Notes under the pieces: generated by a model
What the model saw: the letters and a program-made list of their open reading frames with translations, nothing else
Told to the model about the DNA's origin: nothing
The model's database searches: none
Shown: positions 18,080-27,665 of the stretch, piece after piece
Position numbering within the stretch: position 1 is the stretch's first letter
How the letters are laid out: each line of letters starts with the position of its first letter
Translations under genes and position numbers: made by a program
Source of the DNA: Candidatus Cloacimonadota bacterium
GTDB lineage: Bacteria > Cloacimonadota > Cloacimonadia > Cloacimonadales > TCS61
NCBI GenBank assembly: GCA_018645365.1
Contig: JABGOP010000018.1
Span: 1-34,421, forward strand
DNA: 34,421 bases
Reading direction: 5' to 3'

Positions 18080-19015
18080 ATGAAAAAAAATGACAGTTTT
18101 CAAAATAAAAAAACAGAGATTTTAGAGTATAATCGTAAAATATTTAGAGAGTTCAAAAAATCGTTGAAGGACACAATTTTTGATGAGACTTTGACGCTCT
18201 ACATTTTGCGACCAATTGCATTTGTCTTCGTGAAAATTCTTTATCCAACATCAGTTACACCAAATCAAGTTTCGTTTGCCGCCATTATTTTGGGTTTTAT
18301 TAGTGCTTTTTTTTTCGCACTTGGAGATGTCTCATTTGCTGGTATTCCACACATAAATTTTATCATCGGTGGAATTTTGTATTTCTTCATTTTAGTTTTA
18401 GATTGTGTGGACGGAATGATTGCACGATTGAAAAAAAATGGCACGCTAACTGGCAGAATTATCGATGGTTTTGCAGATTATACTGTGGGGATTTCCGTTT
18501 ATATTGGCTTGGGAATTGGTTTCGATAAAATGGGTGGTTTAGGCTTTCCAATTTCACATTGGTGGCTTTTGATAATTGCAGCCGCGAGTCATATTTTTCA
18601 TTCTGTGATTGTGGATTATTATCGCGTTGAATTTATGTCACACGGGTTGGGAAAATCTGGTTCAGCGTGGGAAGACAAGAATAAATTTAAGGCAGAATTA
18701 GCAAAAATTAAACATGAAAAAGGTCACATTATTGATAAGTTTTTGATAACGCTTTACATCGGTTATTCTCATTTACAACTTTTTCAATTAACAAAAAAAG
18801 AGAGTTTTGAGCAAAAATCATATTTTGACGCGAACCAATTTTTGATAAAATTATGGTTTTGGATAGGTCCAACGGCTCATATTTTTGCCCTAATTTTCGC
18901 AGTTATAGTTTTTCGAATAGAATATTTTTTCATTTATACTATCGGAATCGCCAATATTTATATGCTCGCTTTGTGGATAATTCAAGTGAAAATTAAACAG
19001 AAACTTAGAGCTTAA
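18080..19015 (+). CDS. CDP-alcohol phosphatidyltransferase family protein
   Basis: An integral membrane enzyme that joins a CDP-activated lipid and an alcohol (or a CDP-alcohol and a lipid). The full signature DxxDGxxARx8GxxxDxxxD is present as DCVDGMIAR-LKKNGTLT-G-RII-D-GFAD at about residues 112-137. There are about six hydrophobic segments, a roughly 55-residue soluble N-terminus, and a charged insert (about 190-230) between helices. At 311 aa it is longer than PgsA or PssA (about 180-250), so it is not one of those by length; substrates are unknown. SD AAGAGG. It converges on kdtA with only 2 nt between the stops. Confidence 0.85.
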   Translation: MKKNDSFQNKKTEILEYNRKIFREFKKSLKDTIFDETLTLYILRPIAFVFVKILYPTSVTPNQVSFAAIILGFISAFFFALGDVSFAGIPHINFIIGGILYFFILVLDCVDGMIARLKKNGTLTGRIIDGFADYTVGISVYIGLGIGFDKMGGLGFPISHWWLLIIAAASHIFHSVIVDYYRVEFMSHGLGKSGSAWEDKNKFKAELAKIKHEKGHIIDKFLITLYIGYSHLQLFQLTKKESFEQKSYFDANQFLIKLWFWIGPTAHIFALIFAVIVFRIEYFFIYTIGIANIYMLALWIIQVKIKQKLRA

Positions 19016-19017
19016 AG

Positions 19018-20286
19018 TTATTCTAAAATTAGTTTAATTATTTTTTCGGAACCGTGTGAATTGTCTTCTACAAATTTGAAAGTTGCTTCTTTTAGCATTT
19101 TCAATTTTGATGAATTATTCATTAAATTAAAAAAAACAGCCAAATCATTTGCTGAAAAAGTCATCTTCCCTAAATTCAAATTATGCATTGAAATGGCTTC
19201 GTCCAAAATTTTAATATTCGGTCCAAAAGAAACAGCACAACCGTAAACAGCTGGCTCAATCACGGAATGGACACCTGCACCGAAACCAGCACCAATGTAA
19301 GCTAAATCGGCGTATTTGTAAAGGTCGGCGAGAATTCCGACGCTATCTACAATTACCGCATTTGCTTCAATTTTGTCTTTCATTTGGGAAAATCGTTGAG
19401 CAGAAATTTTATTTTTTGCTAACTTATTTTCGATTTTTAGAAGCGTTTTTTCATCTACTTCGTGTGGCACGAAAATCAATCTATTTTCCAAGTTATTGAG
19501 AGATTTATCACCGTTTGGGTATCGTATTTTTATTGCACCAAACACGACATCAAAATCAGATTCAATGATGCTTCCAAAAATAATGTTTTTAGAATCACAA
19601 ATATTTTTTGGAAAATGCTCTGTTTTATTTTGTTTTTTTCGTTCGATTATTTGGTCAAATCGAGTATCGCTAATTGTAATAATTTTGTCATTGGAAACAA
19701 GTTTTTTGAAATTATTAGCCAATCGTTCAGAGCCAGCTATAACTAAATCAAAATGTTTAAAAACCCAAGAATTTAAAGCTTTTAATGGCCATTTCAAACG
19801 AGATGATTCATCGTATAAATTGCCGTTTATGAGATATGTTTTTACCTTAAATAATTTAGCGAAAAATAGATGGGTTGGCCAAATATCGTGACGCGTAATG
19901 ATGAGTATTTCAGGTTGGAATTTTTTGAAAAAAAGGTAAACACTTCCCGCAAAATCGAAGGGTAAATAGCAAACAGCATCGAATAAACTAGAATCTTTTT
20001 CTTTTTCAAAAATCGTAGGTGAAAAAAAACTTTGTAACACAAAATATTTGTCATGATCAACTCGTCTTAAAATTGGTTTCAACTGTTCAAATTCACCCGC
20101 TGAAGCAGCGTGTAAAATGATTAATTTGCGTTTTAATTTTTTTTGTTTAATTTTAATTAATGCACTTTTCCATGAAATTGGTAAATCTCTAAAACGCGTT
20201 CTAATTTTATGGTTAAAAATGCTCGAAAAAATTAGAATTATCCACAAAATTGGAGATAAAATCAGATATAAAAAATATAATAACAT
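19018..20286 (-). CDS. waaA: 3-deoxy-D-manno-octulosonic acid (Kdo) transferase
   Basis: WaaA/KdtA transfers Kdo from CMP-Kdo to the lipid A precursor at the inner membrane, the first core sugar of LPS. The 422-aa product has a hydrophobic N-terminal anchor (residues 1-24), then LIILHAASAGEFEQLKPILRR with the family's catalytic acid, IITRHDIWP, GSERLANNFKKL, IFVPHEVDE, and AYIGAGFGAGVHSVIEPAVYG, the nucleotide-binding GT-B part. It is the last gene of the nine-gene glycan operon, 6 nt after the HAD gene; no clear Shine-Dalgarno site is visible. It shows that the cell makes Kdo-lipid A. Confidence 0.93.
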   Translation of the reverse strand: MLLYFLYLILSPILWIILIFSSIFNHKIRTRFRDLPISWKSALIKIKQKKLKRKLIILHAASAGEFEQLKPILRRVDHDKYFVLQSFFSPTIFEKEKDSSLFDAVCYLPFDFAGSVYLFFKKFQPEILIITRHDIWPTHLFFAKLFKVKTYLINGNLYDESSRLKWPLKALNSWVFKHFDLVIAGSERLANNFKKLVSNDKIITISDTRFDQIIERKKQNKTEHFPKNICDSKNIIFGSIIESDFDVVFGAIKIRYPNGDKSLNNLENRLIFVPHEVDEKTLLKIENKLAKNKISAQRFSQMKDKIEANAVIVDSVGILADLYKYADLAYIGAGFGAGVHSVIEPAVYGCAVSFGPNIKILDEAISMHNLNLGKMTFSANDLAVFFNLMNNSSKLKMLKEATFKFVEDNSHGSEKIIKLILE

Positions 20287-20292
20287 TAATTT

Positions 20293-20796
20293 TTAGCGAT
20301 ACTTCAAAATGGTGTCCACAAATTCGCGAAATGCCCCATCACCACCATTGCGACTTGTTATCAAATCTGGATCAAATTGGTCTAAAATGATGCTACTTTT
20401 TGGCATTGCAGTCAAACCGACTGATTTTAAAACATCTAAATCATTGATATCATCGCCGATATATGCTACCGCTTCTAACGAAATATTCAGCTTTTGGCAC
20501 AAAGATTTTAACCTTTTTAATTTTTCTTTTTCGCCCAAAAATAAATGCTTAATTTTTAGTTTTTCTGCTCTTCGTTTGACCATTTCGGTACTTTCGCCAG
20601 TCATAATCGCAACTGGGATTTTGTGTTTTTCCAAAATGTGCATTGCCATGCCATCGTAGGTAGAAAATGCTTTTATCGTTTCACCTTCAGCGGTGTAATA
20701 CATTTTTGCATCTGTCCAAACGCCATCAATATCGGTCGCAATCAATTTTATGTTTTTAGCATTTTTTTTGAATTTATTTTCATTAAATTTTACCAT
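20293..20796 (-). CDS. HAD phosphatase, type C0 (nonulosonate-9-phosphate phosphatase or KdsC-like)
   Basis: A 167-aa HAD enzyme with no cap domain. The nucleophile motif is DIDGVWTD (Asp22, Asp24); T66 (AIMTG) is motif II; a Lys of motif III and GDDINDLDVL complete the site. KdsC proteins carry TGR at the specificity position, but here it is TGESTEMVKRRAEKLK, giving E68, R76 and K79. As I recall, these match E56, R64 and K67 of the Bacteroides KDN-9-phosphate phosphatase BT1713, with the same 12-residue offset as the nucleophile aspartates. It overlaps the neuB stop by 7 nt, which supports a role in dephosphorylating a sialic-acid-9-phosphate. Because kdtA follows, a Kdo-8-phosphate role, or both, cannot be ruled out. 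Confidence 0.85.
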   Translation of the reverse strand: MVKFNENKFKKNAKNIKLIATDIDGVWTDAKMYYTAEGETIKAFSTYDGMAMHILEKHKIPVAIMTGESTEMVKRRAEKLKIKHLFLGEKEKLKRLKSLCQKLNISLEAVAYIGDDINDLDVLKSVGLTAMPKSSIILDQFDPDLITSRNGGDGAFREFVDTILKYR

Positions 20797-21839
20797 TCGA
20801 TGTCCTCTTCATTCATTACTGTATCGGCCAAAATGTCAATTTTAGATTTTTTACCGATTAAATTTTTAATTTTCATTGGTGAAATTCCACTACCAGGACC
20901 TTTGGTGGTCAACATTTTTCTTGTAATTATATCACCTTTTTTGATATCAACGAAAGATACGATACTTTTCGCTAATTTCTTAAATATGGGTGCCTCAGAT
21001 TCTTGCATCTCCTTTTGAAAAACCCCCATTGCTTCTTCGATGTGATGAATATCTCGCACCATTTTTGCAAAGCCTTGTGGTTCAAGTGATGCCGCGTGAT
21101 CTCCACCCTTCATAGTGCGATCGAGAGTAAAATGTCGTTCGATAATTTTTGCACCCAATGCTACTGCAACTGGTGGAATGGCGATGCCTTGTTCGTGTCC
21201 AGAATACCCAATTATTGCATTTGGAAATTCAGCTTTATAGGTGTGCAAAACATTCAAATTTATTTCGTCAAATTTTGCAGGATAAGTTGAAGTGCATTGT
21301 AAAATTGCAATTTTTTGATTGAACTGCTCAACATGCTCAACGGCCTGTTTTACAATTGACATATTTGCCATTCCCGTTGATAAAATCATCGGTTTATTTT
21401 TCTTCGCAGTATGCTCTAATAATGGAAAATTAGTTAAATCTGCAGATGCCATTTTGAAAAATTGAACTCCCAATTCATCTAAAAAATCGATACTTTCTTC
21501 ATCCCAACCCGATGCTGAAAATTGAATATCCAGTTGCTTACAATAATCCAACAATTCACGATAATCCGATTCAGAAAGTTCAAGTGCATGTTTGTGTTCA
21601 CCGTAAGTTTTTCCAAAACTATTTCGATTATCATAAGACATTTCCAAGCCTTCTTTGGTCAAAATTCGACTGATTGTCCGCTTTTGCAATTTCACTGCAT
21701 CTGCACCGCAATCTTTTGCTTCGTCGATTAATTGTTTAGCAATATTTATATCGCCTTGATGGTTAATTCCAATTTCAGCAATAACAAATGTTTGTTGTTC
21801 GTCACCAACTAATTTATTTCCTAGCTTGATTGTTTTCAT
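20790..21839 (-). CDS. neuB: NeuB-family sialic acid synthase, NANS-like (probable 9-phosphate synthase)
   Basis: Condenses PEP with an N-acylmannosamine or its 6-phosphate. The 349-aa product has the TIM-barrel NeuB domain (FVIAEIGINHQGDINIAKQLIDEAKDCGADAVKLQK at the N-terminus) and a C-terminal SAF antifreeze-like domain from about residue 285 (KSIVSFVDIKKGDIITRKMLTTKGPGSGISP). Segments such as FGKTYGEHKHALELS, FSASGWDEESIDFL, FFKMASADLTNFPLLEHTAKK and IGYSGHEQGIAI resemble animal NANS more than the usual bacterial NeuB, LegI or PseI, which read GLSDHT at the last site. Strong SD AAGGAGAAAA. Overlaps neuA by 4 nt. Substrate is not proven: ManNAc-6-P or Man-6-P. Confidence 0.9.
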   Translation of the reverse strand: MKTIKLGNKLVGDEQQTFVIAEIGINHQGDINIAKQLIDEAKDCGADAVKLQKRTISRILTKEGLEMSYDNRNSFGKTYGEHKHALELSESDYRELLDYCKQLDIQFSASGWDEESIDFLDELGVQFFKMASADLTNFPLLEHTAKKNKPMILSTGMANMSIVKQAVEHVEQFNQKIAILQCTSTYPAKFDEINLNVLHTYKAEFPNAIIGYSGHEQGIAIPPVAVALGAKIIERHFTLDRTMKGGDHAASLEPQGFAKMVRDIHHIEEAMGVFQKEMQESEAPIFKKLAKSIVSFVDIKKGDIITRKMLTTKGPGSGISPMKIKNLIGKKSKIDILADTVMNEEDIEW

Positions 21840-22516
21840 TTTTTCTCCTTTAATTTTTGATATATTTTCTCTAACATTATAAAATCTATTTCGCTATCGA
21901 TTTCACCTGAATATTCTTCATCAAAAATGATATGCCCAATTTTTCCACCCAATCTATTCCCAGTCTTCTCAAAATTATCTCGACTAAAAATATACAGCGA
22001 GCCATTTTCAACATACCGAATATCTTCAGTTTTCATATCTTGTCGTCTAGGTCGATTTAAATAATTGTATTCGGCGATTGTTTTATTATCTTTAATTCTC
22101 CAAAAAAACCGATGAGTTGGAGAAATGGATAAGAGCGATTCACAACCATTTTTTATAAATTTTTCTATCGCATTTTGCACTGCATTTTTTGGTCGAATTG
22201 GGCTGGTTGCTTGCAATAAAACAATAATGTCAGGTTTAGGTGATATTTCTGAAATAGCATGTTCAATTGCAGATTCGGTCGTTGCTGTGTCTCCTGAGAT
22301 TTCATTAGGTCGCCAAATAATTTTTGCACCAGCATTTTTTGATATATCTGCAATTTCCTTATCATCAGTCGAAACATAAACAGCATTCATCAACTTCGAT
22401 TGCAACGCATGTTCAATTGAGTGAATAATTAATGGTTTTCCACCGAAATCTTTGATATTCTTTCCTGGGACACCTTTGCTGCCACCGCGTGCTGGAATTA
22501 TTGTGATGATATTCAT
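21836..22516 (-). CDS. neuA: CMP-N-acylneuraminate cytidylyltransferase
   Basis: Activates sialic acid (or a relative such as KDN) with CTP to CMP-sialic acid. The 226-aa single-domain product has IPARGGSKGVPGKNIKDFGGKPLI at residues 7-30, VSTDDKEIADI, LLQATSPIRP, RPRRQD near 153, YVENGSLYIF near 166, and EIDSEIDF near the C-terminus, the metal-binding motif of the family. No phosphatase domain is fused; that function is in the neighbouring HAD gene. Overlaps both neighbours by 4 nt. Confidence 0.95.
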   Translation of the reverse strand: MNIITIIPARGGSKGVPGKNIKDFGGKPLIIHSIEHALQSKLMNAVYVSTDDKEIADISKNAGAKIIWRPNEISGDTATTESAIEHAISEISPKPDIIVLLQATSPIRPKNAVQNAIEKFIKNGCESLLSISPTHRFFWRIKDNKTIAEYNYLNRPRRQDMKTEDIRYVENGSLYIFSRDNFEKTGNRLGGKIGHIIFDEEYSGEIDSEIDFIMLEKIYQKLKEKK

Positions 22517-23130
22517 TTTAAGTAATCCTTTAATAAAACAACTTTTTTAGTTAAAAGTAATGATTCAATATACTTCTTTTCACCATCCATATTGTGTTTT
22601 GTTGCTTTTTTAACAATATTTTTTTCGATTAACCATCGCGTTAGACGATTCTCATTATAATGCGTTTGGGAGTCAATAAAGAAATCGAAACCATGGATAA
22701 CAACTTTATCAAAATTATCTAAACCCCACATTATTGATGATGTCCCAGTTGTTGGGCGAGTTACACCAATTTGTTTTTCATATTTCAACATTTTGTTGTT
22801 AGAAATTAGCTCATAATTTGAACGCTGAGTGCCAAGTCTTTTTTCTATCCGCTGATGAATTGCATCACCCTTCCTTGATAATATTTCAGCAGGGATAAAT
22901 ACTACAATTCTATCTGGTTTATCAATCCTTTTTTTCAATCCCTGATTTGCTCCATTAAACCAAATATCTGTTTTATTTCCAACATATTTCTCATATTTTT
23001 CAATTGAATAATTATTAATACGAGCAATATTGGAAAATTGGTTAATTTCTTTGCCATATTGATAATTCAATGCCGAAGAACCATTTGCAATTATTAATAA
23101 AATATTTGATGTATTTAGTAAATTACTCAT
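22513..23130 (-). CDS. GT29-like sialyltransferase candidate
   Basis: The 205-aa protein has no signal peptide, but all four sialylmotifs of family GT29 can be read in order. Motif L is at residues 11-57 (IIANGSSAL...YGKEI..FSNIARINNY....VGNKTDIWF). Motif S is at 124-151 (RPTTGTSSIMWGLDNFDKVVIHGFDFF). Motif III is HYNE at 157-160. Motif VS, HX4E, is at 179-184 (HNMDGE). It overlaps neuA by 4 nt, the gene that would make its CMP-sialic acid donor. Animal GT29 enzymes are Golgi proteins of 300-400 aa, so this would be a minimal soluble form. The donor is inferred; the acceptor is unknown. Confidence 0.75.
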   Translation of the reverse strand: MSNLLNTSNILLIIANGSSALNYQYGKEINQFSNIARINNYSIEKYEKYVGNKTDIWFNGANQGLKKRIDKPDRIVVFIPAEILSRKGDAIHQRIEKRLGTQRSNYELISNNKMLKYEKQIGVTRPTTGTSSIMWGLDNFDKVVIHGFDFFIDSQTHYNENRLTRWLIEKNIVKKATKHNMDGEKKYIESLLLTKKVVLLKDYLK

Positions 23131-23181: not shown

Positions 23182-24261
23182 TTAATGTTCCTCTTTGTAG
23201 ATAGATCCATCATCCAATGCAACATTCCATTCTTTGACGGGTGTTTTCCAGTTTTTACCATATTTCACTTTTAAAAATTCTTCGGGATTTGATGGAACTG
23301 GAATCATTTTACCATAAAATTCTATTTCTTCTATTGAATCAAAGAAAACTTTTTTATGATATGCATTTCTATCCCAAACAACATATTTATAAACTTCTTC
23401 ATTTCGATTTGGGAGTTGACCTAAGTAATAGACAAATAAATCTAGGCATAAATCTTCTTTTAAAAAATGATTTTTTCGAGGATAAACTTTGATTACACGA
23501 TAATTTCCCAGTTGCCATAAACCATCAATTGACTTAAACTCTTTTACACTTACATAATATTGTTTCTTTAGATTTGAAATCATTTTCTTCATCTTTAAAT
23601 CAGATGAATATTTCATCCCCAAATCTAAATCATGGTCCCATGGGATTAACTTTTTATCTCTTATAGCACCAAGTAAAGTGCCACCTTCAATCCAATAATC
23701 AACATTACTATTTTTAAGAATATCATTAACATCAAGTAATAATTTTACTGCTTTTTTTTCAGATTCAGAATCGAAAGAAACTGAATGTTTTTTATAAAAA
23801 GATAACATCAAATCAGCACGATACTTATTTACAAATGATGATAAATTGTGTGGAATTTTCAAATCTAAATTATCTAAGATTTTAGTTTCTATTGCTAAAT
23901 CAGTTTTTTTCAGTTTTACATCTGCACCACCAAGATGCATTGTGAAATTTTCGTCAATAGATTTTAGTATTGAAAGGCGAATACTATCAGAATTTTTTTT
24001 GAAAAAAGTAGGCTTAAAACGAAGTCGGTAAAATAACTTGCCATTACTTTTTTTAGGCTTTATAATAATTTTATTGAAAATCAGGATTAAAAATAATTTT
24101 ACAAGTTTAATCTTAGAAAAAGGAAAAAGATATAAATGTAAATTGGGGGAATATTTGAAAATATCACCCTCAGAAAAACCAACGAGTGAATCTGCACCTA
24201 TAATATATTTTATATTGACTCTGTCTAAATTTTTTATAACTATTTTATGAAATGGTTTCAT
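23182..24261 (-). CDS. LicD/fukutin-family phosphotransferase with a degenerate second LicD-like half
   Basis: LicD proteins transfer phosphocholine, and fukutin/FKRP relatives transfer ribitol- or glycerol-phosphate, from CDP donors to glycans. The C-terminal half (about 185-359) has the nucleotidyltransferase signature NVDYWIEGGTLLGAIRDKKLIPWDHDLDLGM with DHDLD at 209-213, a second DLCLDLFVYYL segment, and the closing VPSNPEEFLKVKYGKNWKTPVKEW. The N-terminal half (about 15-152) seems to repeat this plan without the acidic residues: NIKYIIGADSLVGFSEGDIFKYSPNLHLYLF and then IPHNLSSFVNKYRADLM. Downstream of tagD and the glycerophosphotransferase (TAATG overlap), so CDP-glycerol is the likely donor. 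The gene is strikingly AT-rich. Confidence 0.75.
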   Translation of the reverse strand: MKPFHKIVIKNLDRVNIKYIIGADSLVGFSEGDIFKYSPNLHLYLFPFSKIKLVKLFLILIFNKIIIKPKKSNGKLFYRLRFKPTFFKKNSDSIRLSILKSIDENFTMHLGGADVKLKKTDLAIETKILDNLDLKIPHNLSSFVNKYRADLMLSFYKKHSVSFDSESEKKAVKLLLDVNDILKNSNVDYWIEGGTLLGAIRDKKLIPWDHDLDLGMKYSSDLKMKKMISNLKKQYYVSVKEFKSIDGLWQLGNYRVIKVYPRKNHFLKEDLCLDLFVYYLGQLPNRNEEVYKYVVWDRNAYHKKVFFDSIEEIEFYGKMIPVPSNPEEFLKVKYGKNWKTPVKEWNVALDDGSIYKEEH

Positions 24262-25322
24262 TATTCCTCTATTTGTTTTTTTTCATCAGTTTTGATAAAA
24301 TGTTCAATCATTTTCATCATTCTTTGTGATGTCTTACCATCATATTTATAGCAACTTTGCTCTGTCCAATAATTTTGTTTATCACTGATTTGATTGATAT
24401 TTTTCACTGCATTTTCAATTGCTAAATCAATTTCTTGAGGTTTAGAAGAATTCCCAAAATCCCAATCTTCATCAACATATGGAATTTTAAATGGTCTTAA
24501 TTTTCTGTCTGTTTTCATTTCTTGTTCGAGTCTCTCGTCAGAAATCCACGAATCACCCTTGCGTTTATCAACCTCTGGAAAACATCCTGGATAATTTGGT
24601 AATATCATCTGAATTACTTGCTTTTTTAAAATACTTGCTTCTGCCAAGACAGATGACACATCGCTGATAATAATATCGGCTAAATGCAAAAATTGATTTA
24701 TATTTCCATCTGTTGGCACAATTGCACCATATTTTTTTGCTAACCGATAATCGGCTGAATGTGGGACAATAATTAGATTTTCGAGGTGCTGTAAGTATTT
24801 TACATTATGTATTCCAGCATCTTTATTTCGCTTGCCACCCCACGATGGTGCAAATAAAATAATTGGTTTTTTAGAATCCAACCCTAATTTTTCACACATT
24901 TCTAACTTATTGATTTCAACTTTTAGCAAGTCATCAATTTTAGGATAACCACCCAATAAACCATTTTTAAAATCTGGGTTTATCGCTTCCATTTTTCGTT
25001 TAAAAACTTCACCTGGATAAAATAATATTGCAGATTTATGAAAGAAATTATATTTGTATGTGTAATACTTCATTGGACTTAAGCCATGCTCAATGTAGAT
25101 GTATTGCCCTTTCCAACCAGAATTTTGCAATCGATAAAGAGGTTGATCATAAGCAATTATAATTAGGTTTGAAATACCTTTCATCAATTTTCGATTACGA
25201 AAACTATGTTTATGAACTTTACTTAATTCAACATCCCAACCATTATTTTTCATTAATTGGAATAGCGGAAGAATGCTTGAGTATCCTTTTGGTGTTGAAT
25301 AAATGAAGTCTATTTTTTGCAC
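24261..25322 (-). CDS. CDP-glycerol:glycerophosphate glycerophosphotransferase family protein (TagB/TagF-like)
   Basis: A GT-B fold transferase of the teichoic-acid type that adds glycerol-phosphate from CDP-glycerol to a lipid or glycan acceptor. The 353-aa product has YIEHGLSPMKYY, GYPKIDDLL, ILFAPSWGG at about 158, IVPHSADYR, ADIIISDVSSVLAEASILKKQVIQM, and the C-terminal CYKYDGKTSQRMMKMI, all typical of PF04464. It lacks the membrane-anchoring N-terminus and extra domain of full TagF and is closer to TagB length. The start is GTG at 25322, overlapping the tagD TAG by one base (TAGTG). Confidence 0.88.
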   Translation of the reverse strand: MQKIDFIYSTPKGYSSILPLFQLMKNNGWDVELSKVHKHSFRNRKLMKGISNLIIIAYDQPLYRLQNSGWKGQYIYIEHGLSPMKYYTYKYNFFHKSAILFYPGEVFKRKMEAINPDFKNGLLGGYPKIDDLLKVEINKLEMCEKLGLDSKKPIILFAPSWGGKRNKDAGIHNVKYLQHLENLIIVPHSADYRLAKKYGAIVPTDGNINQFLHLADIIISDVSSVLAEASILKKQVIQMILPNYPGCFPEVDKRKGDSWISDERLEQEMKTDRKLRPFKIPYVDEDWDFGNSSKPQEIDLAIENAVKNINQISDKQNYWTEQSCYKYDGKTSQRMMKMIEHFIKTDEKKQIEE

Positions 25323-25720
25323 TATACTTTACCCTGTCCAGAGAGTTCTTGCTTAATTTCTGTCGTTGAGATACCTTCAGTTCGTCCTAAATAAACGACT
25401 TCACAAAATTCTTTCAAAAAATCAAATTTGCCTTTCCAATCATCGCCTATTACAAATACATCAATTTCGTGGTTTTTGACATCTGTTATTTTTTGTTTCC
25501 AATTGGTTTCAGGAATGACTTCATCTACATATTTGATAGCTTCGACAATTTTGGCACGCTCTTCAAAGGGGTGAACGCATTTTTTGTTTTTACCTAAATT
25601 AAACTCATCTGTCGAAACGGCTACAACAAGATAATCACCGAGCTTTTTTGCTCTTTTCAACAAATTTAAATGACCAATGTGAAAAAGGTCGAAAGTGCCG
25701 TATGTAATTACTTTTTTCAT
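25322..25720 (-). CDS. tagD: Glycerol-3-phosphate cytidylyltransferase
   Basis: Makes CDP-glycerol from glycerol-3-phosphate and CTP. The 132-aa product has the nucleotidyltransferase site GTFDLFHIGHLNLLKRAKKLGDYLVVAVSTDEFN at residues 8-41, FEERAKIVEAIKYVDEVIPE, VIGDDWKGKFDFL, and YLGRTEGISTTEIK at the end, all as in TagD. It supplies the donor for the next gene and probably for the LicD-family gene. Overlaps the ABC exporter gene by 4 nt (ATGA). CDP-ethanolamine-type relatives (RfaE/ECT) are less likely from the RTEGISTT motif. Confidence 0.93.
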   Translation of the reverse strand: MKKVITYGTFDLFHIGHLNLLKRAKKLGDYLVVAVSTDEFNLGKNKKCVHPFEERAKIVEAIKYVDEVIPETNWKQKITDVKNHEIDVFVIGDDWKGKFDFLKEFCEVVYLGRTEGISTTEIKQELSGQGKV

Positions 25721-27612
25721 TTTTCTTTGAATTGCATCTCGTGCAATTTTTTGTATTTTTCACAAGTTTTTAGGAGTTCGGTATGTTTACCAATTTCGAT
25801 AATTTTGCCATTGTCCATTACCACGATTTTATCAGAAGACAGAATTGTGGATAAGCGGTGTGCGATTACGATGACCGTTCGATTTTTGGTGGCTTGTTCG
25901 ATTGCTTTTTGCACTTTGTGTTCTGCCTCAGAATCGAGTGCACTGGTTGCTTCATCAAAAATTAAGATGGGAGGATTGCCCACGATTGCCCTCGCGATGC
26001 ATAATCGCTGTTTTTGTCCGCCAGAAAAGTTTGAGCCTTTTACCGAAAGCTGGGAGTTATAATTTTTAGGTAATTTTTCGATAAATTCATCTGCATAAGC
26101 AATTTTTGCAACTTTTTTGATTTCATCATCGCTAATTTTGCTGAGTGAACCGTAACGAATATTTTCGGCAATTGTTTCTGAAAATAAGATAGATTCTTGC
26201 GTTACTGTTCCCATTAAAGTTCGTAAATTTCGTAATTTGAAATTTTTCACATTTTCGCGATCAATCAAGATTTCACCTGAATCCACATCGTACATTCGCG
26301 TTAAAAGGTTGATGAGAGTTGTTTTTCCCGAGCCACTATTTCCAACTAAAGCTATTTTCTCACCTTTATTTATGGTGAAATTGATGTTAATTAAAATTTT
26401 CGTGGTTGGTGTGTAAGAAAAACTTACATTTTTGAACTCGATTATTTGCTCAAAAGTTGCTTTTTTGATTGGATTTTTAGTTTCTGTAATTTCTGAAGTT
26501 CGGTCGATAATTTCCGAAATTCTATCTAAGGAAACATTTGCTTTTTTGATGTTTGCGTAGATTTTCGTAAGTACTTTCATCGGGTGCTGAATGGAGAAAA
26601 TAGCCAGCATAAAAGCGATAAAGCTTCCGAATGAAAAGTTGAGGTTTGGGTTCAAAACTTGATTTCCGCCGATGATGAGAATGATGACGCCCGTTGTAAC
26701 ACCGATTGTCTCCGAAAGTGGAACATTGAATGCACTGTAAGCTACTGATTTTCGCCAATATTTGAAATGTAATTTATTGATTTCGCGAAATTTAGTCATC
26801 TCGAATTTTTCGCGAGAAAAAGCTTTTACGATACGCATATTATTGAGTTTTTCCTCAACATTCGAGAACATATTTGATGACTGTTGCTGAATTCGTTTTG
26901 AATATTTTTTTATTTTATTTCCCAAAAAATAGAGAATTAAACTGAAAATCGGGAATAATATCAAACTGATGAGGAATAGTTTTGCGTTGATGAAAATAGC
27001 GATGCGTGCAAAAACGAAAATGAGGATAATGTTTTTGAGTGATTCAAAAATAGAGGTAACCAAAAAATTACCAATGATATCCACATCTGAAACCATTCTA
27101 ACGAGTGAATCGCCGACTTTGTTTTTGTTGAAGAATGCCAAAGATTGGTACAAATACTTACGATAAATGAGATTGCGAATATCTTTGATTGTGTGTCCTC
27201 GCAGATTGGCAAACAAAATTCTTTGTCCAAAAAAGAAGAAATTTTTCAGTAAAGTTATCGACAGTAACGAACCACCAATAATCCATAAAAGAAGGTGGCT
27301 ATCGGTTTTTTCTAAAATAAGACTAAGGTTGTCCAAAAGAGGTTGGAGTGTATCTTTATTGGACATTTTCAGCAAACTTCCGTATTGTGATGTGAATGCG
27401 GAAATTGTTTCTGTTACCGCATTCCAAAATGCAGGAAAATTAGTGTAAATTATTTGGTTGGTCGTTTTTTTGAAAACATTATCCATCAGTGGAATTGCCA
27501 AAGTGATGCTGGCTCCACTGAAAATTGCAAATCCAACCATAAAGAACAACCCCGAAATGAGATAGTTCCAATGTTGGAGCGTAATTTTCAAAATTCTTTT
27601 CATGTTTTTCAT
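25717..27612 (-). CDS. MsbA-like ABC exporter (fused transmembrane and ATPase domains)
   Basis: A type IV half-transporter with about six membrane helices (residues 1-360), a large periplasmic loop after TM1 containing the insert NTDT-like region, and a complete ATPase domain: Walker A GNSGSGKTT near 415, Q-loop TQE, signature SNFSGGQKQR, Walker B ILIFDEATSALD, and H-loop IAHRLS. 631 aa is slightly longer than E. coli MsbA (582), owing to the TM1-TM2 loop. Context with kdtA and glycan genes suggests lipid A/LPS or another lipid-linked glycan as substrate. First gene of the operon. I start at ATG 27612; the ORF track starts at the TTG just before it. Confidence 0.85.
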   Translation of the reverse strand: MKNMKRILKITLQHWNYLISGLFFMVGFAIFSGASITLAIPLMDNVFKKTTNQIIYTNFPAFWNAVTETISAFTSQYGSLLKMSNKDTLQPLLDNLSLILEKTDSHLLLWIIGGSLLSITLLKNFFFFGQRILFANLRGHTIKDIRNLIYRKYLYQSLAFFNKNKVGDSLVRMVSDVDIIGNFLVTSIFESLKNIILIFVFARIAIFINAKLFLISLILFPIFSLILYFLGNKIKKYSKRIQQQSSNMFSNVEEKLNNMRIVKAFSREKFEMTKFREINKLHFKYWRKSVAYSAFNVPLSETIGVTTGVIILIIGGNQVLNPNLNFSFGSFIAFMLAIFSIQHPMKVLTKIYANIKKANVSLDRISEIIDRTSEITETKNPIKKATFEQIIEFKNVSFSYTPTTKILININFTINKGEKIALVGNSGSGKTTLINLLTRMYDVDSGEILIDRENVKNFKLRNLRTLMGTVTQESILFSETIAENIRYGSLSKISDDEIKKVAKIAYADEFIEKLPKNYNSQLSVKGSNFSGGQKQRLCIARAIVGNPPILIFDEATSALDSEAEHKVQKAIEQATKNRTVIVIAHRLSTILSSDKIVVMDNGKIIEIGKHTELLKTCEKYKKLHEMQFKEK

Positions 27613-27665
27613 CAATGTTTTCCACCAATTTATTTAAAAAAGAAAAATTTATGATTGGGTGTTTA

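Follow-up and report, generated by a model that had tools for sequence, protein, structure and literature searches.

The 34,421-nucleotide contig JABGOP010000018.1 of a Candidatus Cloacimonadota bacterium (assembly GCA_018645365.1; analysed in full and referred to here as the window) carries on its minus strand a run of genes for a GT29 glycosyltransferase, a NeuA-type cytidylyltransferase, a NeuB/NANS-type synthase, a C0 HAD phosphatase and a GT30 glycosyltransferase. We read these genes as a nonulosonate branch of the lipopolysaccharide (LPS) inner-core pathway that probably replaced 3-deoxy-D-manno-oct-2-ulosonic acid (Kdo), the sugar thought to link lipid A to the rest of LPS in nearly all Gram-negative bacteria; judging from gene content and gene order, we put the probability of this reading at roughly 0.7. 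It also seems likely, if with somewhat less assurance, that Kdo was replaced by a nine-carbon nonulosonate, 3-deoxy-D-glycero-D-galacto-nonulosonic acid (Kdn), in several phyla by way of a movable neuA-neuB-HAD-GT30 module, often accompanied by GT29, and that in the source genome the replacement is recent enough for its near relatives to have kept Kdo and for a native waaA to persist in decay.

Four of the genes overlap in series, at the coordinates and in the order given by a preliminary description of the window: in order of transcription, GT29 (22513-23130, 205 aa), NeuA (21836-22516), the synthase (20790-21839) and the phosphatase (20293-20796), with overlaps of 4, 4 and 7 bases, respectively. 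The GT30 gene (19018-20286) follows on the same strand after a 6-base gap. The families named in the preliminary description were borne out by Pfam and NCBIfam profiles, the curated cut-offs being passed for GT29, NeuB, SAF, CTP_transf_3 and NF058599, but that description ended just short of the GT30 gene and contained neither the GT30 linkage nor the loss of the Kdo pathway.

No KdsA, KdsB or KdsD scored over cut-off in the source genome or in seven of the nine other genomes with a GT29 cluster, all of which carry LpxK. The source genome is 97% complete, and synteny located the losses. A genome of the same genus (G001) has the order DUF4159-kdsA-kdsC-lptC-lptA, whereas in the source genome lptC-lptA begin 73 bases beyond a DUF4159-like gene; comparison with two same-genus genomes further showed that kdsD is gone from beside thrS and kdsB from beside mnmG. 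No pseudogene remnant was detectable at the kdsA-kdsC, kdsD or kdsB positions. Because gene order is conserved around these three clean gaps, the kds loss in the source genome is not an assembly gap. A second, native waaA (G000:C46, L050:6773-7981) lies in the same gene order as in same-genus relatives and shows changes in motifs conserved elsewhere (HTNSVSE for HxxSxGE, ETDFLP for ETEFWP and PRY for PRH), which suggests decay under relaxed selection or a new function; such changes are the expected outcome once CMP-Kdo has been lost.

The GT30 gene of the window encodes a divergent member of the WaaA/KdtA family (PF04413, 109 bits) that matched Aquifex aeolicus WaaA (2xci) at E 4e-18 and retains the catalytic glutamate motif HxxSxGE as HAASAGE. 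It did not group with characterised CMP-Kdo-using WaaA: in the tree all module GT30s formed one clade (support 100/99), apart from the clade of ordinary WaaA that includes the Escherichia coli enzyme (100/100). Wherever the contigs of GT29-bearing genomes were long enough, NeuA, NeuB, HAD and GT30 were clustered, often together with MsbA, the glycerophosphotransferase and LicD, and NeuB-HAD-GT30 were also adjacent in loci of Fibrobacterota and Flavobacteriaceae. The same three genes were contiguous in 19 of 20 further sampled loci, the twentieth ending at a contig edge, and in Chitinispirillum NeuA-NeuB-HAD-GT30 form a separate run convergent with GT29. Two related clusters contain genes for a lipid A acyltransferase of the LpxL family. 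The only further genome of the source phylum with a window-type synthase (G292, of the same class as the source genome) has neuA-neuB-HAD-GT30 directly before lptC-lptA-lptB, the place held in G001 by kdsA-kdsC.

Of the Neomarinimicrobiota genomes surveyed, 175 in all, 34 had the window-type NeuB and 111 had KdsA over cut-off, and no genome had both (Fisher p 8e-19, uncorrected for shared descent). The window-type NeuB formed a distinct class, at 64-75% identity compared with 43% or less for other full-length NeuBs. Pelagic Neomarinimicrobiota that lack KdsA (L100, L102 and L103; genomes of ~1.5 Mb) carry a NeuB-NeuA-HAD-GT30 set with a different NeuB, ~280-290 aa long, 42-43% identical and apparently without a SAF domain.

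The linkage to GT30 and the disappearance of the entire Kdo pathway together argue for an inner-core role in lipid A/LPS and not for an animal-like capping of surface glycans. The best reading is that CMP-Kdn takes the place of CMP-Kdo, CMP-activated N-acetylneuraminic acid (Neu5Ac) being less likely. The NeuB-type synthase would condense mannose 6-phosphate (Man-6-P) or, less likely, N-acetylmannosamine 6-phosphate (ManNAc-6-P) with phosphoenolpyruvate (PEP) to Kdn 9-phosphate (Kdn-9-P), the HAD enzyme would release Kdn, NeuA would activate it to CMP-Kdn, and the divergent GT30, a proposed CMP-Kdn:lipid A transferase, would place Kdn on lipid A where Kdo normally sits. GT29 would then add one more Kdn or sialic acid residue to the core, LicD, the glycerophosphotransferase and TagD would add phospho-polyol or phospho-base groups, and the MsbA-like exporter would flip the resulting molecule towards the Lpt machinery. 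The sequences themselves show the protein families, their linkage, the loss of kdsA-D and the mutual exclusion with KdsA; we infer from them which sugar is made, what GT30 and GT29 act on and at which positions the residues are linked.

The evidence on the sugar itself comes from the synthase, the phosphatase and the cytidylyltransferase. The synthase matched PF03102 at 289 bits and carries a SAF domain (PF08666, 30.5 bits) whose closest match was human NANS (1wvo), in keeping with the NANS-like character first proposed for it; TIGR03569, the equivalog model for the Neu5Ac synthase NeuB, was not reached (356 bits, cut-off 399.65). At the position of Arg314, which in Neisseria meningitidis NeuB contacts the N-acetyl group of N-acetylmannosamine (ManNAc), Gly or Ser was found in all 13 cluster members and Arg in the four other NeuBs of the relatives. 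We infer a synthase of the 9-phosphate/NANS type that would act on a 6-phosphorylated mannose derivative. The phosphatase exceeded the cut-off of NF058599 (187.7 against 180), and its best match in the PDB was BT1713 (3e81; 142.9 bits, compared with 114 for the best KdsC). The residues altered in BT1713 structures, E56 (4hgq) and E56 with K67 (4hgr), were retained as a pair in 26 of 26 module phosphatases, whereas these sites hold K/R and E/D in two true KdsC proteins from the same genus. NF058599 was also the top model for each of eight further module HADs scanned, four of them over cut-off, and KdsC models ranked top for both true KdsCs. The assignment as a C0 HAD phosphatase stands, with a residue signature of the Kdn-9-P type. 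NeuA (PF02348, CTP_transf_3, 105.9 bits) matched best the PDB entry 9t4z, 'PpNeuA' (120.6 bits), which we suspect to be the CMP-Kdn synthetase of Prymnesium; CMP-Neu5Ac synthetases came behind it and CMP-Kdo synthetases far behind.

Finally, NanE was not found over cut-off in any of the 26 module genomes tested, the source genome included. The HAD model and residues, the loss of Arg314, the NANS-like SAF domain, the NeuA match and the absence of NanE thus favour Kdn made from Man-6-P, with Neu5Ac possible; Kdn had been raised only as an option in the preliminary description. The principal competing view leaves the replacement of Kdo intact and makes Neu5Ac the product, from ManNAc-6-P. The human-type SAF domain is compatible with it, and NANS accepts both substrates, Km values having been quoted for Man-6-P and ManNAc-6-P (PMC6200933). 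Nevertheless, we regard it as unlikely, at about the level of a minority option, given the missing NanE and the Kdn-9-P-type phosphatase signature. Neither the window nor the related clusters read showed a NeuC or a ManNAc kinase, which also speaks against Neu5Ac and which, for NeuC, agrees with what had been said of the window (a genome-wide NeuC/WecB search was not made).

The 205-aa protein is a GT29 enzyme, as had been proposed for it. It matched PF00777 at 56.5 bits (E 3.6e-15, cut-off 23) and is 44-56% identical to ten bacterial relatives from several phyla, across which sialylmotifs L, S, III (H157, Y158) and VS (H179...E184) are kept, H179 and E184 invariantly. An AlphaFold2 model (predicted local distance difference test score, pLDDT, 80; predicted template modelling score, pTM, 0.78) was searched with Foldseek against the PDB, and 30 of 30 matches at E <= 0.001 were GT29 sialyltransferases. 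The adjoining CMP-nonulosonate genes suggest that it transfers a CMP-activated nonulosonate, likely a Kdn or sialic acid residue onto the LPS core. A scan of named genomes placed its relatives in Neomarinimicrobiota, an Eisenbacteria bin, Chitinispirillum and Flavobacteriaceae, and no relative was found in viral contigs. Within the source phylum, GT29 was found in one of 99 relatives and is thus no long-standing feature of the lineage, and it is accessory to the module, since modules without an adjoining GT29 exist (L109, L111). Bacterial GT29s were described in alpha-, gamma- and epsilon-proteobacteria by Petit et al. in 2018 (PMC5811610). The proteins reported here share all four sialylmotifs with those but differ in belonging to Neomarinimicrobiota, Fibrobacterota, Flavobacteriaceae and the source phylum and in being tied to a complete CMP-nonulosonate module with GT30. 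One genus with GT29 is Loktanella (PMC5811610), whose lipooligosaccharide has a core solely of ulosonic acids with neuraminic acid attached to Kdo (PMC3210612), a precedent for the proposed GT29 step.

The presence of GT29, NeuA, a NANS-type synthase and a phosphatase in one run could instead reflect an animal-style sialylation of capsule, O-antigen or S-layer, with the kds loss and GT30 unrelated to it and lipid A devoid of any ulosonic acid. LicD, TagD and the glycerophosphotransferase can serve surface polymers, and a few bacteria are known to have lipid A without Kdo. This alternative, which we consider doubtful and weaker than that of a Neu5Ac product, leaves unexplained why GT30 accompanies the synthase/phosphatase pair across phyla, why the module of G292 occupies the kdsA-kdsC slot before lptCAB and why the synthase and KdsA exclude each other; that GT29 is not adjacent in some modules also counts against it. 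The preliminary description had taken the genes for such an animal-style system. Its GT29, 9-phosphate synthase and phosphatase are genuine, but the GT30 linkage and the Kdo-pathway loss point away from its interpretation as surface-glycan capping, and the novelty claimed for the animal-style route is reduced by the bacterial GT29s of 2018 and by the phosphorylated Kdn route of Bacteroides thetaiotaomicron, both already known.

Under a further alternative, Kdo would be made non-orthologously, a NeuB-like enzyme acting on arabinose 5-phosphate (Ara-5-P) and CMP-Kdo serving an ordinary GT30. In its favour, Kdo transferases form the GT30 family, the phosphatases KdsC and BT1713 are related, and the module has taken the kdsA-kdsC slot in G292. 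However, KdsD, the Ara-5-P isomerase, has been lost as well, and the phosphatase carries Kdn-9-P-type residues, opposite to those of true KdsC; on these two grounds we judged the idea very improbable. The NeuA protein, moreover, resembles CMP-nonulosonate synthetases and not KdsB, and the Kdn-9-P synthase of Prymnesium, a member of the NeuB family, was inactive on Ara-5-P (PMC6200933).

Several observations weigh against the replacement of Kdo by a nonulosonate. The 34 NeuB-bearing Neomarinimicrobiota genomes belong to few clades, and the genomes are mostly draft assemblies. Two cluster-bearing bins, G100 (L004) and G106 (L010), also carry kdsA, kdsB and kdsD elsewhere, reflecting either mixed bins or real co-occurrence. 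One genome (G103) has no synthase gene between NeuA and HAD, where a short stretch similar to the beginning of the gene is left (L007:9212-9406), and the sole candidate to replace it is a 38%-identical NeuB elsewhere (L104:7295-8176). The donor pocket of the module GT30s differs from that of ordinary WaaA, but the Flavobacteriaceae GT30 from the Kdo-positive bin G106, sister to the module clade, shows partly similar pocket changes; we therefore did not accept that the pocket alone proves a switch of donor. An outright assembly artefact, in which the kds genes are merely unassembled and both sugars are made, would accord with the number of drafts and the two bins with both gene sets but is hardly credible in view of the three synteny-verified clean deletions in the source genome and of KdsA in 0 of 34 genomes with the window-type NeuB as compared with 111 of 141 others.

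Measured against the canonical Kdo-lipid A pathway (KdsD, KdsA, KdsC, KdsB and WaaA/GT30), the proposed Kdn pathway has the same logic of a phosphosugar, a PEP-dependent synthase, a C0 HAD enzyme, a CMP-transferase and a GT30, occupies the slot beside lptC-lptA-lptB in one genome and retains lpxK; it differs in that the synthase and CMP-transferase are of nonulosonate families, KdsD is missing, the phosphatase has Kdn-9-P residues and GT30 forms a separate clade. The Kdn pathway of B. thetaiotaomicron (BT1713/BT1714) has in common with it a NANS-type synthase, a C0 HAD enzyme with E56/K67 and NeuA-type activation, but we know of no link between that pathway and GT30 or Kdo-gene loss, whereas GT30 is a fixed part of the present module and kdsA-D have been lost. 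The B. thetaiotaomicron route runs from Man-6-P through Kdn-9-P and Kdn to CMP-Kdn (PMC6200933). The alga Prymnesium parvum likewise has a Man-6-P-specific Kdn-9-P synthase and a CMP-Kdn synthetase, and Kdn and Kdo genes are largely exclusive across algae (PMC6200933); the Kdn-9-P synthesis from Man-6-P and the CMP-Kdn proposed here, and the exclusion of Kdo genes, have a parallel there, but Prymnesium is a eukaryote without lipid A. Known replacements of Kdo in LPS, D-glycero-D-talo-oct-2-ulosonic acid (Ko) and 8-amino-Kdo (Kdo8N), are Kdo analogues with eight carbons (PMC3210612). They resemble the present case in putting another acidic ulosonic sugar at the Kdo position, but the case proposed here combines loss of the entire Kdo supply with a nine-carbon sugar that another pathway provides.

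Such a nine-carbon substitute would be new; we found no earlier report of lipid A with Kdn or another nonulosonate instead of Kdo in the open literature, preprints and most subscription journals lying outside the search. Kdo counts as a defining constant of LPS and the enzymes that make it as targets for antibacterials, and the replacement, if true, would mean that the inner core tolerates another ulosonic acid. It would also provide a genomic marker, GT30 adjoining a Kdn-9-P synthase in the absence of kds genes, for LPS invisible to Kdo assays. The proposal bears on the old idea of a common ancestry for the sialic acid and Kdo pathways, and bacterial GT29s, the proposed source of animal sialyltransferases, would gain a concrete job, the addition of acidic sugars to an LPS core of ulosonic acids.

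The upstream start of the same-strand run (27615-23182) comprises four genes, headed by an MsbA-like ABC exporter (25717-27615) with ABC_membrane and ABC_tran domains, which scored 446 bits against the MsbA model TIGR02203, under its cut-off of 602. It is followed by a TagD glycerol-3-phosphate cytidylyltransferase (25322-25720; TIGR01518, 191.5, over the cut-off of 165.4), a protein resembling CDP-glycerol:glycerophosphotransferases (24261-25322; PF04464, 40.4 bits; 46-63% conserved in related clusters) and a LicD-family protein (23182-24261; PF04991, 54.4 bits) that probably serves core decoration and was also found close to several GT29 modules (L004, L006, L007, L107 and L108). At the other end, convergent with the GT30 gene, lies a gene (18080-19015) whose product belongs to the CDP-alcohol phosphatidyltransferase family and weakly resembles archaetidylinositol-phosphate synthases.

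Some related clusters contain additional genes. A membrane protein of sulfatase fold (LtaS/EptA-like), which may transfer phosphoglycerol or phosphoethanolamine to the core, is encoded between NeuA and NeuB in four loci (L003:9282-11318, L008:10444-12414, L107:4452-6407 and L110:5659-7620). In two of these (L003:6707-8002 and L110:3078-4373), the TagD/LicD place is taken by an IspD-like cytidylyltransferase apparently fused to a short-chain dehydrogenase, an arrangement resembling TarI-TarJ of CDP-ribitol synthesis.

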